Assembly (NCBI RefSeq): GCF_024198235.1
Contig: NZ_JAKCFB010000006.1
Coordinates: 124,001 to 188,000, forward strand
DNA from: Myxococcus dinghuensis
GTDB taxonomy: Bacteria > Myxococcota > Myxococcia > Myxococcales > Myxococcaceae
Direction: 5' to 3'
Length of the DNA: 64,000 bases
The notes under the pieces are model-generated. The model was given only the letters and a program-made list of their open reading frames with translations, was not told where the DNA came from and did not search any database. The translations under genes and the position numbers were made by a program. Shown here in pieces: positions 28,795-32,630 of this stretch. Positions within the stretch are counted from its first letter, which is position 1. Each line of letters opens with the position of its first letter.

Positions 28795-29316
28795 CTAGGC
28801 GCCGCGCTTCAAGCGCTCCACGTAGGCGGCCGGGAGCCCGGCCGCCTGAGCGCCGCGCACCAGCGCCTCCACGAAGCGCGGGCTCACCGGACCGTCGCCG
28901 GAGGCACGCCGCGGGTTCGTGACGAACGCGGTGGCCTCCACCTGCTCGCCGTTCACGAGGACCTTCACGGGGCGCTCCACGCACATCCCCGTCACGAAGC
29001 CTTCCTTGTGCTGGACGATGGGCCAGTCCTGCCCGCGAATCTCGAAGAGCCGGCCGAACACCCGGGCCCCCGGCGAGTCCTCCAGACCCGCCACGCGTCC
29101 ACCCCACCAGCGCGAGGGGAAGTCGTAGACCAGGTCCACGTCCACCGCCTCGGCCAGCTTCCCCTCCGGCAGCTCGAAGAAGGCGTACGAGTGCTGCTGC
29201 TTCCACTCGTCGAACGCCGCCCGGTCCAGGATGGTGGAGTACGCGAAGTACAGCCGCGTCGCGTTCGGGTCCGCGCCCTCACGGGCCTTCATGACCTGAT
29301 CATAGTGCGAGTCCAT
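28795..29316 (-). CDS. Gamma-glutamylcyclotransferase-like protein
   Basis: 173-residue protein of the AIG2/GGCT fold. YFAYSTIL replaces the usual YGSNL substrate loop, and VFGRLFEIRG and the probable catalytic Glu in QHKEGF match the core. Family enzymes release 5-oxoproline from gamma-glutamyl peptides or act on related amines. It is last in a three-gene minus-strand operon, 15 bases after the GbsR-type regulator, with a strong AGGGGAG ribosome site. Its tie to isoprenoid synthesis in the operon is unexplained. It is convergent with the pump gene, whose stop lies 6 bases away. Confidence 0.7.
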   Translation of the reverse strand: MDSHYDQVMKAREGADPNATRLYFAYSTILDRAAFDEWKQQHSYAFFELPEGKLAEAVDVDLVYDFPSRWWGGRVAGLEDSPGARVFGRLFEIRGQDWPIVQHKEGFVTGMCVERPVKVLVNGEQVEATAFVTNPRRASGDGPVSPRFVEALVRGAQAAGLPAAYVERLKRGA

Positions 29317-29331: not shown

Positions 29332-29922
29332 CTACTTCTCGCCCCGCCGCCCGGCACCGTCGCGGAACACCGCCAGCACTCCGGAGACGTCCAGGCGCGA
29401 GGTCTTGATGAACAGCCGCAGCGCGCGCTCCACGTGCTCGGCCAGCGTGGCCATCTTCTCCAACCGCTCCAGGCGCTCGGCCGGGACGCTCCCCGCCGTC
29501 TCCGCCAGCCGCCGCGCCTCGGCGAGGTCCGCGCGGATGCGGGCCACGAATCCCGCCTCCCGCTCCTCGATGACGTGCCGGACCATCCGCACCAGGTCCG
29601 TCTCCGCCCCGTACCGCCACACCGTGTCCTGGGGCAGCCGGACCCGCTGGATGACCCCCCAGCGCTCCAGGTCCCTCAGCAGCATGGAGACGCCGCCCTT
29701 GGAGAGGTCCAGCTCGCGCTCGATCTCCCCCGCGGTCAGCGGCTCGCCCCGCAGGTACAGCAGCGCCCAGACCCGGCCCTGGTTGCGCTTGAAGCCCCAG
29801 AACTCGATGACGTTGCCCACCGCGTCCACCGCGATGGCTTCCCAGGGGGCCAGACGCCCCTCGCTCGGAGCGGCCTCCGTGCTCGTGCTCCCGTGTCCCC
29901 CCGTCCACAGGTAGCCCTTCAT
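29332..29922 (-). CDS. GbsR/MarR-type transcriptional regulator
   Basis: 196-residue protein with a winged helix-turn-helix: the recognition region is LTAGEIERELDLSKGGVSMLLRDLERWGVI, typical of the GbsR group, in which GlyBetaine-type repressors and many myxobacterial orphans fall. A C-terminal helical tail (about 115-190) would dimerise. It starts at ATG 29922, overlapping the stop of the polyprenyl synthase gene. A perfect palindrome in the operon promoter is a good candidate for its own operator, giving autoregulation. Ligand unknown. Confidence 0.8.
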   Translation of the reverse strand: MKGYLWTGGHGSTSTEAAPSEGRLAPWEAIAVDAVGNVIEFWGFKRNQGRVWALLYLRGEPLTAGEIERELDLSKGGVSMLLRDLERWGVIQRVRLPQDTVWRYGAETDLVRMVRHVIEEREAGFVARIRADLAEARRLAETAGSVPAERLERLEKMATLAEHVERALRLFIKTSRLDVSGVLAVFRDGAGRRGEK

Positions 29923-30917
29923 GCAGCGCGCCCTTGCACCTGCGCGGCGATGCCGGCGGACAGCTTGTGCGCCCAGTCCACCAGCTCCGCGCCGGCGGGC
30001 TCCTGGGCGAAGGAGCCCAGCTTGTCCAGGGCCGCCTCGATCTCCACGTTCATCCGCGCCATGGACGACTCCACCGCGCCGGTGGCCTCGATGGCCGCGC
30101 CAATCTCCTTCGTGCGCTCCGGGGTGATCACGCTGAAGGCCCACGCGTCCTTCAGCTTACGGCGCAGCGACTCGTCCTTCACCACCGCCAGCAGGATGGG
30201 CATCGACGGCGTGCGGGAGTGGACATCCGCGTAGCGCGGCTTGCCCGGGTCCGTGCCCAGGATGTCCCGGATGTCGTCGGCGATCTGGAACGCCACGCCC
30301 AGGTGACGGCCGAACCCGTCGAAGCGCGCCACCGCCTCCGGCTGGTCCGACAGCGTCGCCGCCGCGTGCCCGCACCAGCCGAACAGCGAGCCCGTCTTGC
30401 CCTCGGCGATGAAGCGCAGCCGGTTGAGCGGCAGGTCCAGGTCGCCGCGCGCCTCCACCTCCGCGATGGCCGCGCGGGTCATCTCCGCCACGACCGCCAG
30501 CGCCGACAGCGTCAGCCGCGAATCCAGCCGCGCCAGTTGGTGCAGCCCCGTCGACAGGATGAGGTCGCCGCTCATCACCGCCACGATGTTGCCCCAGCGC
30601 GCGTTCACCGTCGGACGGCCCCGGCGGAACATGCCCGCGTCCACCACGTCGTCGTGCAGGAGGCTCGCCGAGTGGATCAGCTCCGCCGCCACCGCCACGT
30701 CCACCAGCGGCTCCGCCGGCACCCCCACCGCGCCCCCGAACAGCCGCGCCAGCATGGGCCGCGCGCGCTTGCCACCACTGCCCAGGCACAGGTGACGGGC
30801 CGCCTCCATCAGCGTGTCACCCTTCACGTCCGGACCGGCGTCGCCATCCACCAGCGTGGTGCTCAACCGCTGCTCCACCGCCCCCAGAAAGTCCGTCAGC
30901 TCCCGAGCCAGATCCAT
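29919..30917 (-). CDS. Polyprenyl diphosphate synthase
   Basis: Trans-isoprenyl diphosphate synthase of 332 residues. The first Asp-rich motif DDVVD is at 89-93 and the second DDIRD at 214-218, with GGKRARP at 48-54. It elongates allylic diphosphates with isopentenyl diphosphate; the product length (farnesyl, geranylgeranyl, or a quinone side chain) is not decided by these motifs. The start is ATG 30917, preceded by GTGAGGAG. The longer open frame upstream is a shadow. First gene of an operon with the regulator and cyclotransferase. Confidence 0.9.
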   Translation of the reverse strand: MDLARELTDFLGAVEQRLSTTLVDGDAGPDVKGDTLMEAARHLCLGSGGKRARPMLARLFGGAVGVPAEPLVDVAVAAELIHSASLLHDDVVDAGMFRRGRPTVNARWGNIVAVMSGDLILSTGLHQLARLDSRLTLSALAVVAEMTRAAIAEVEARGDLDLPLNRLRFIAEGKTGSLFGWCGHAAATLSDQPEAVARFDGFGRHLGVAFQIADDIRDILGTDPGKPRYADVHSRTPSMPILLAVVKDESLRRKLKDAWAFSVITPERTKEIGAAIEATGAVESSMARMNVEIEAALDKLGSFAQEPAGAELVDWAHKLSAGIAAQVQGRAA

Positions 30918-30945
30918 GTGCGCCGTTCTCCTCACACGTTCATAT

Positions 30946-30965
30946 AGTTCAAGACCGCTTGAACT
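30946..30965 (-). promoter_or_regulatory. Perfect 20-base palindrome, putative GbsR-type operator
   Basis: AGTTCAAG-N4-CTTGAACT, 29 bases before the polyprenyl synthase start and just upstream of a TATATG that could be a -10 box. A repressor bound here would block the promoter. The regulator encoded second in this operon is the obvious candidate. The symmetry is seen; binding is inferred. Confidence 0.6.
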
Positions 30966-30980
30966 GCACCTGATTCCAGC

Positions 30981-31024
30981 GCCCCCCTCCAGGCGGCCGG
31001 CCGGGCCGGGTCCGGCAGGGGGGC
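30981..31024. repeat. Long GC-rich inverted repeat between divergent genes
   Basis: GCCCCCCT at 30981-30988 pairs with AGGGGGGC at 31017-31024, with further GCCGG/CCGGC pairing inside. It lies between the polyprenyl synthase promoter and the divergent transporter. It could be an attenuator-like hairpin in the transporter leader or a dispersed palindromic element. Confidence 0.45.
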
Positions 31025-31067
31025 GGCCGGGCGGGCGTGGGGGGTTGTAGGTCGGATTGAGACCCCC

Positions 31068-32630
31068 GTGGGCGGCATGCGACAGACGGGAGCGTCCGTT
31101 CCTTTCGCAGCAAGGATTGCGTTGAGCCCCGCAGCCTTCCGTCGCTACGTCCTGAGCAGCTTCGCGTCGCTCGCCACGGCCGTGCCCCTGTTCCGCCCTG
31201 GCTCGTCGCTGCCGGGGGCCGCCGCGCCCCTGCTGGGAGCCCCCGCCGCGGATGCCCCGGCGGGGCCGGTCGTGGCGTCGCCCCGGCGGCTGCGGGGCTC
31301 GCTCGGCGCGTCGGTGGTGGAGGGCATGTTCGCGGAGATCTTCACCGCGTGCGCCGGGGCCACGGTCCTCACCGCGTGGGCCATCGCCCTGGGGTTGGGG
31401 CCCCTCCTCGTCGGGGTGATGACGGCGCTGCCCTTCTGCGCCCAGTTCGTGCAGTTCCCCGCGGCGTGGCTGACGTCGACGTTCGGACACCGCCGCGTGG
31501 CGCTCACCGCCGTGTGCCTGTCGCGCCTGGTGATGTTCCCGCTGGTGGTGGTGCCGTGGCTCGGGCTCTCCCTGACCGGACAGCAGCACCTGCTGCTGGG
31601 CGTGGCGGGCGCGTCCGCGGTGCTCGGGGTGGTGGGCAACAACGCCTGGGTGGCGTGGATGGGGGAGCTGGTGCCGCGTCCCATCCGGGGCCGCTTCTTC
31701 GGCCGCAGGACGGCGCTCACCACGCTCGCGGGGACGATCGCCTCGCTCGGCGCGGGCCTGCTGATGGACCGGCTGCGCCCGCCCACCGGCCCCGGGCTGG
31801 CGCTGCCGCTGCTCGCGCTCGTCGCCTGCGTCATGGGCGTGGTGACGACGCTGCTCATGGCCACGCAGCATGACCCGGCGCCGCCGGGCACCGCGCCCCG
31901 GCTGGAGCTGCGCGGCGCGCTGGTGCCACTGAAGGATCCCCAGTCCCGGCGGCTGCTGACGTACCAGGTGGCCTGGAACGCGGCGGTGGGCGTGTCCGCG
32001 CCGTTCTTCGCGCTGCACAGCCTCCAGAACCTCAAGATGACCTTCGTCATCATGGCCCTGCACGCCGCGGGCGTGGCCACCGTGCGCATCCTCACCGCGC
32101 CCTTGTGGGGCCGGATGATCGACCGGGTCGGCGCGCAGCCGGTGTTGATGGCGTGCTCGCTGGGCATCGGCGTCATCCCCGCGCTGTGGCTGCTGCCCTC
32201 GGCCGGGACGCTGTGGCCCCTGCTGTTCGACGTGCTGCTGGCGGGCGCGCTGTGGAGCGGCCATGGCCTGGCCATCTTCGCGCTGCCGCTCACCGTGGCG
32301 CCGCGCAAGGGCCGCCCCTTCTACCTCGCCGCGTTCGCCACCGCGGGCGGACTGGCCTACTCCGCCGCCGCCGCGCTGGGCGGCGCCATCGCCTCCGCGC
32401 TCCCCGAACAGTTCCTGCTCGGCGGCCTCCCGTGGGTGAACCTGCACGTGCTGTTCGTGCTGTCCTCCGTCGCCCGGCTGGCGGCGGGCATGCTCGCCAC
32501 GCGCCTGCCGGAGCCCGGCGCGCGCCCCGTCACGTCCCTGGGCGCGCTCGTCGCGTGCCTGACGCCCCGGCCCACCGCGCCCGCGCTGGCCTCCACCTCA
32601 CGCACCCAACCCCGGACTCAGACGCGGTAG
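31068..32630 (+). CDS. MFS-type transporter
   Basis: 520-residue polytopic membrane protein with about 12 hydrophobic segments from residue 90 on. Features of the major facilitator fold are the loop GHRRVALTAV between segments 2 and 3, the mid-loop RGRFFGRR and the second-half GRMIDRVGAQPV. A long Ala/Pro-rich N-terminal part (about 65 residues) before the first helix is unusual. The start is uncertain: GTG 31068 or ATG 31077, neither with a good ribosome site. Substrate unknown. Its 3' end overlaps that of the convergent chemotaxis gene by 13 bases. Confidence 0.72.
   Translation: MGGMRQTGASVPFAARIALSPAAFRRYVLSSFASLATAVPLFRPGSSLPGAAAPLLGAPAADAPAGPVVASPRRLRGSLGASVVEGMFAEIFTACAGATVLTAWAIALGLGPLLVGVMTALPFCAQFVQFPAAWLTSTFGHRRVALTAVCLSRLVMFPLVVVPWLGLSLTGQQHLLLGVAGASAVLGVVGNNAWVAWMGELVPRPIRGRFFGRRTALTTLAGTIASLGAGLLMDRLRPPTGPGLALPLLALVACVMGVVTTLLMATQHDPAPPGTAPRLELRGALVPLKDPQSRRLLTYQVAWNAAVGVSAPFFALHSLQNLKMTFVIMALHAAGVATVRILTAPLWGRMIDRVGAQPVLMACSLGIGVIPALWLLPSAGTLWPLLFDVLLAGALWSGHGLAIFALPLTVAPRKGRPFYLAAFATAGGLAYSAAAALGGAIASALPEQFLLGGLPWVNLHVLFVLSSVARLAAGMLATRLPEPGARPVTSLGALVACLTPRPTAPALASTSRTQPRTQTR

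Follow-up and report, generated by a model that had tools for sequence, protein, structure and literature searches.

Upstream of a polyprenyl diphosphate synthase operon of Myxococcus dinghuensis lies a perfect palindrome that raises two questions, namely, which protein reads it and which pathway it serves. In the analyzed window, the whole stretch of 64,000 nucleotides, this predicted palindromic operator (hereafter site a) occupies exactly the positions, 30946..30965, at which an earlier note on this DNA had reported a perfect palindrome. Read on the minus strand, site a has the form AGTTCAAG-N4-CTTGAACT; the full 20-mer is AGTTCAAGACCGCTTGAACT, that is, AGTTCAAG-ACCG-CTTGAACT, located 28 bp upstream of the ATG of the synthase gene, pps. 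Perfect palindromes of the 8-4-8 type are not rare as such (8 in the window vs about 3.4 expected); only site a, among these eight, has at least five A/T per arm. The 20-mer has no other match with up to 3 mismatches within the 64-kb window and no match in any of 100 shuffles, and the chance expectation for its exact 16 letters is 6e-7 per window. The palindrome is real and not a product of chance. As for the possible -10 box that the earlier note had seen beside it, a candidate, TATATG, is indeed present on the minus strand (30941..30946, from the sequence only), overlapping the edge of the operator and a third half-site described below, but a promoter scan of 30850-31150 detected no sigma-70-type promoter (0 found), so that the box is treated as unproven.

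The palindrome precedes three genes that all lie on the minus strand, in order, as the operon had been read previously: pps itself (29919..30917; PF00348, E 9.4e-46), a GbsR/MarR-type regulator, the proposed operator binder (29332..29922; MarR_2, PF12802), and an AIG2-like, that is, gamma-glutamylcyclotransferase-like, gene (28795..29316; PF13772, E 1.1e-15). The stop codon of pps and the start codon of the regulator overlap as ATGA. Among 48 public loci that contain the regulator, the regulator gene lies directly downstream of pps in 47; in the remaining one (L082), the order is reversed, with pps downstream of the regulator. Past the regulator, 42 of the 48 loci yielded a match to the AIG2-like gene; the six loci without a match are L056, L062, L077, L078, L081, and L082, of which L062 and L081 are represented by sequences that end soon after the regulator. 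Because the palindrome is kept in all six, the suggestion that the cyclotransferase-like third gene hints at a ligand is unsupported. The intergenic region upstream of pps is shared with a divergent MFS transporter (31068..32630, plus strand; PF07690), which was matched in 23 of the 48 loci.

The regulator scores 43.2 bits against the MarR_2 model (PF12802; cut-off 27), which identifies it as a protein with a MarR-type winged helix-turn-helix. Its best solved relative is MJ223 (1ku9), the template for the model of GbsR (phmmer E 1.7e-11, residues 37-173); the nearest solved structures are MJ223 and 5jbr by sequence, with 4nb5 added by fold. The predicted structure consists of helices and a wing (mean pLDDT 83), and its comparison with 1ku9 using VIA-align yielded Z 14.3 over 148 residues at 4.8 A, covering mainly residues 26-126, with the rows under the top three being general winged helices. 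The cut-off of the equivalog model for the choline regulator CudC (NCBIfam NF047500) was missed (31 vs 218 bits); the regulator is a distant relative of CudC, not CudC itself. An osmoprotectant or cytochrome bd neighborhood, which sorts GbsR sub-groups and is not family-defining, was not found at the 48 public loci, where pps adjoins the regulator instead. The regulator has one match at E 1e-5 in its own genome, its closest named relatives, 93% identical, come from M. eversor, M. qinghaiensis, and M. llanfair..., and its profile matches 145 of 195 Myxococcota genomes at E 1e-12.

The search of the genome for the same 20-mer, which the earlier note had recommended, links this operon to a specific pathway. 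The 10.4-Mb genome of M. dinghuensis contains two sites with up to 2 mismatches (reversed pattern, 0), namely, site a and one further close copy, AGTTCAAAACCTCTTGAACT (site b), located between menF-menD and a run of aroF-menG-aroK-aroDE-aroC-like frames. Subfamily models matched above their cut-offs, with 461 bits for MenD (cut-off 244), 297 for isochorismate synthase (225), and 238 for MenG/UbiE (158). Thus, one sequence element is common to the genes for the tail and to those for the head group of menaquinone. The autoregulated isoprenoid operon proposed previously stands as an isoprenoid operon but was drawn too narrowly because the copy at site b makes it part of a wider predicted menaquinone regulon. 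At 3 mismatches, the genome shows no excess of sites (3 vs 3 for the reversed pattern) and, for this reason, a site about 90 bp before a purA-like frame, inside the end of a helicase-like frame (G000:C49:70378), was taken as chance. A search of the same genome with the core TTCAAGNNNNCTTGAA at 1 mismatch retrieved four places, two of them new (C31 and C70), compared with 2 for the reversed pattern.

Site a is widely conserved. The palindrome is present with up to 2 mismatches in 46 of the 48 public regulator loci, and the other two (L058 and L076) show none because their contigs start only about 0.4-0.5 kb before the regulator, leaving the pps promoter out; its absence from the same place in related genomes, which the earlier note had held would speak against a functional palindrome, is not what is observed. 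Together with the GbsR-like nature of the regulator and the menaquinone-linked second copy, this conservation provides good support, at the level of sequence comparison, for the proposal that the palindrome is the putative operator of the GbsR-type regulator. Among the 195 Myxococcota genomes, which overlap with the 48 public loci (for example, L081 reads like L109) so that the two sets are not independent samples, 84 hold 147 sites with up to 1 mismatch by hand count, compared with 4 for the reversed pattern, and 59 of these 84 have exactly two sites. The sites concentrate in the family to which M. dinghuensis belongs (80 of 96 genomes, vs 4 of 99 outside), and the motif is therefore narrower than the protein family that is represented in 145 genomes. 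Some genomes have a single site: G059, G044, and G183 carry site a, with no site b found, and G053 carries site b, with no site a in the stretch examined. One genome (G158) contains two strong regulator matches and three sites with up to 1 mismatch, and the system possibly is duplicated there.

Of the 16 genomes of the same family that lack a site at this threshold, at least nine (G108, G133, G137, G139, G141, G029, G155, G135, and G142) have a 2-mismatch site before pps, and in G134 and G136 menF is preceded by a site with 3 mismatches. Of the other five, G109 has neither the regulator nor pps in its assembly, G036 has no regulator, the sequence of G035 stops short of the promoter, G152 encodes the regulator, with no site at 2 mismatches, and G031 shows no recognizable copy at its homolog, which is 34% identical and adjoins a pps. 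Such a copy is also absent at further homolog loci, including those of the f5 and f6 families, L181 to L184, L190 to L193, L195, and L196. Those in L190, L191, L192, and L193 (G183, G182, G058, and G185, respectively) are more distant GbsR-type homologs with no nearby pps or men matches. A record titled Comamonas sp. KCTC 72670 (L039; BNCN01000013.1) contains a locus of the Myxococcus type, in which the palindrome is exact and the regulator 89% identical, and probably is mislabelled.

The association of site b with the men genes was traced in 15 genomes of the same family that had been picked as seemingly deficient, with G033 included as a known case. The menD gene is present in 13 of the 15, and in 12 of these, a site with up to 3 mismatches adjoins menD, menF, or the divergent gene; the exception is G142, with site a present and none beside menD. 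Site b persists across rearrangements of the men genes, including menFD alone (with no men-type aroF found there), menD against aroK, and menFD against menG/ubiE. In G035, the regulator is present, menD and men-type aroF were not found, and the sequence ends before the promoter; in G012, site b is present, and neither the regulator nor pps was found, perhaps due to an assembly gap, which is unproven. No aroF relative at E 1e-40 was found in 8 of 26 genomes, in most of which menD was searched afterwards.

Several other sites were rejected. The near-matches AGTTCAAGTCGACTTGAGGT (L083-L085) and ACTTCAAGTGCACTTGAAGT (L087 and L101) were left out of the regulon, as weak methyltransferase hits were the only men or pps matches there; judging by eye from the translations, MerR-like frames lie beside them in L084, L085, L087, and L101, with none listed in L083. 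The near-palindrome AGTTCAAGTCGACTTGAGGT (L083 3035, L084 3032, L085 2995) recurs in at least 10 genomes, adjoins a MerR-like frame (L084, L085) and a methyltransferase-like frame, and perhaps is the operator of another regulator; the ACTTCAAGTGCACTTGAAGT-like palindrome (L087 3033, L101 3026) lies, again by eye, between MerR-like and oxidoreductase-like frames. Sites in G037 (L172, L174, and L175), G038 (L173), and G057 (L168), as well as L086, L092, and L096, are not accompanied by any match to men genes, pps, or the regulator, the sole hit at L097 is polyprenyl-synthase-like (37%), and L255 and L256 have no matched regulon gene; all these were taken as chance or unrelated. The L255 site (1501-1520, in G154) reproduces the palindrome exactly but forms part of a longer inverted repeat, likewise perfect, whose arms measure 13 bp; the 3 kb examined around it gave no match to a regulon gene.

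The conserved palindrome with a 4-bp spacer is present at both promoters, that of pps and that of menFD/aroF-menG. In 46 rows, the mean majority is 95% in the arms vs 64% in the spacer; most of these rows were selected for having a site, so the conservation of the arms is partly by construction. The operator apparently extends beyond the palindrome, to a third half-site, TGAAC (30938..30942, minus strand), at +4 to +8 after the palindrome and at equal spacing at the menFD/aroF site. When the operator is oriented toward the target gene, TGAAC at this offset is exact in 29 of 45 diverse rows for site a, with at least four of the five letters in 36 of 45, and in 6 of 14 diverse rows for site b, with four of the five letters in 8 of 14; the 15 other offsets give 1 exact match in total, and their 4-of-5 matches peak at 7 of 45 (+14, site a). 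The promoter alone does not explain this half-site because site b, without a TATATG box, often still has TGAAC.

Taken together, the observation of two conserved sites that are paired and associated with the regulator leads us to infer binding, repression, and response to a ligand, and we assign a probability of roughly 0.82 to the reading in which a GbsR/MarR-type repressor coordinates the menaquinone tail, the menaquinone head, and its own gene via the palindrome. Under this scenario, the palindrome, probably together with the TGAAC half-site, would be the operator of the regulator encoded by the second gene of the operon, most likely a repressor. This protein would control the polyprenyl tail enzyme and its own gene from the site at pps and, at site b, the enzymes of the naphthoquinone head group, the final methylation, and the chorismate supply, so that tail and head supply of menaquinone would be matched. 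Release would probably follow the binding of a pathway metabolite, the candidates being prenyl diphosphates and intermediates of the head group, for example, DHNA.

The arrangement of promoter elements bears on the sign of this control. At site a, the TATATG box adjoins the palindrome, the operator is upstream of it, and no good -35 was found, so the position of this site does not prove repression; it is even what could be expected if the regulator and the operator were as proposed but the regulator were an activator of pps that switches menaquinone synthesis on. We consider this alternative unlikely, given the other promoters. Site b is accompanied by a conserved promoter-like element, TTGTYT-16-TATACA, with the operator downstream of the -10-like box, starting 10 bp after the -10 in the M. 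dinghuensis genome, which, by analogy with GbsR (PMC7396694), would be a road-block position. In L082 and L104, TTGACA precedes the operator at promoter distance, so the operator lies over the likely -10; furthermore, the GbsR-type proteins described in the available text of previous reports are repressors (PMC6207618, PMC7396694).

The identity of the binding protein can be questioned as well because most of the evidence ties the site to the menaquinone genes and the operon rather than physically to the regulator, and several GbsR-type homologs occur without the motif. A different, unlinked transcription factor, for example, a regulator of redox or respiration, might then bind the palindrome, with the GbsR-type gene merely co-regulated; this appears rather improbable in view of the divergent lineages. 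In the f7 family, the site at pps reads TTTCARAA-NN-TTYTGAAA, a variant found in 5 of the 11 genomes searched (reversed control, 0); this pattern was derived from the pps sites, so that only the hits at menFD/aroF (L124 and L128) are independent. Two genomes, G048 and G052, carry the variant TTTCARAANNTTYTGAAA exactly twice each (up to 1 mismatch), at pps-regulator and between menFD and aroF-menG, so that sites a and b changed in parallel. The f7 regulators, in turn, have STGAASM or SSGAASM where those of the M. dinghuensis family mostly have SKGGVSM, and this segment, according to the structural model, is likely the recognition helix; the f6 proteins likewise carry STGAASM, yet no site was found at f6 loci. 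A partial frame beside pps in L125, DAHP synthase-like by eye, gave no tblastn hit and was not counted. In the f9 family, site a of G044 and site b of G053 both have the form GGTTCA...TGAACC, a weaker parallel because no single genome shows both sites.

The most distant case also argues for the regulator itself. In L082, a metagenome-assembled genome that its own record labels Planctomycetota, with misbinning possible, the order is palindrome-regulator-palindrome-pps-aroF-menG-menF, so that only the regulator, pps, and men genes accompany the motif, in one cluster. The encoded regulator is 44% identical to that of M. dinghuensis; the palindrome directly before its gene has 1 mismatch, and the second one, before pps, has 3. 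The position of the first site, ahead of the regulator gene, reflects the downstream location of pps in this locus. Conversely, G036 lacks the regulator, the motif, menD, and men-type aroF together. Both sites recur in other families: in f25 and f16, site a is present with 1 to 2 mismatches (L177-L180) and site b with 3 mismatches in G184 and G074, and in G057 (f3), site a is exact and site b, at 1 mismatch, precedes menF-menD. Far less probable still is that the palindrome has a structural role in the pps leader (as an RNA hairpin or attenuator) and is not a protein site: it does lie close to the start codon, at about 12 bp in several relatives, but the identical sequence recurs in another leader, unrelated to that of pps, and between divergent genes, the spacer varies more than the arms, and scanning 30850-31150 revealed no site resembling a terminator.

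Returning to the repressor that coordinates tail and head synthesis, its connection with menaquinone seems to reach beyond the range of the motif. In the f6 family, the homolog precedes pps and ubiE (menG) in L113 and L115; farther along L115 lies a partial MqnE-like frame that scores below the cut-off as the frame is cut. In the f5 family, a UbiA-family gene, identified with Pfam, precedes the regulator homolog in L110; UbiA-like ends adjoin 7 of 8 f5 regulators by a crude text check, the Pfam test being confined to L110; and in L118, a VitK2_biosynth protein is encoded about 3 kb from the homolog. No palindrome of the site a or site b kind was found at these f5 and f6 loci, which therefore are evidence for the link between regulator and menaquinone only, not for the operator. 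A more ambitious version, to which we give even odds, is that the regulator is a dedicated menaquinone GbsR-type sensor of a quinone precursor or prenyl diphosphate that jointly tunes tail and head through a three-half-site operator, has kept this job across hosts with the classical Men route or with genes of the futalosine route, and has moved between phyla together with its operator.

These observations suggest a switch that controls the synthesis of vitamin K2 (menaquinone) as a whole. The regulation of microbial quinone levels has been called poorly understood; in Lactococcus, the available text of the same source points to MenD feedback and substrate limits, and the men promoter is possibly activated by CRP or CcpA (PMC12421875). 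Among titles and abstract openings, with subscription journals mostly outside, we found no menaquinone-specific GbsR/MarR regulator. A pathway-specific regulator with a defined operator in the genetically tractable Myxococcus would open the question of quinone levels to direct testing, would extend the GbsR family by a quinone class, and might provide a biosensor part for vitamin K2 production.

Among the known systems, CrtR of Corynebacterium glutamicum is likewise of the MarR type and encoded beside a prenyl diphosphate synthase gene, crtE; it represses its own gene and is released by isoprenoid diphosphates, GGPP best, a precedent that makes a prenyl diphosphate a candidate signal here as well (PMC5401885). 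CrtR differs in controlling carotenoid genes from a divergent promoter via a short TTAA-containing motif, with no menaquinone genes among the targets given in the available text of that report (PMC5401885). The survey of the GbsR family describes four neighborhood classes (various transporters, cytochrome bd, betaine synthesis, and Opu uptake) and an unknown group, and its main text does not contain "polyprenyl", "menaquinone", or "Myxococc" (PMC6207618); the regulator analyzed here is GbsR-like, in a neighborhood class absent from that text. CydE, covered in the survey, is a GbsR-type repressor of a respiratory system, cydAB, and targets a terminal oxidase, not quinone synthesis (PMC6207618). 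GbsR of Bacillus subtilis, like the present regulator, is a winged-helix protein of the MarR type related to MJ223, and its operator, an inverted repeat whose halves are separated by 4 bp, is located past the start site, like the predicted operator at site b, as far as the available text describes it (PMC7396694); unlike the regulator described here, GbsR responds to choline and governs choline uptake and the synthesis of glycine betaine.
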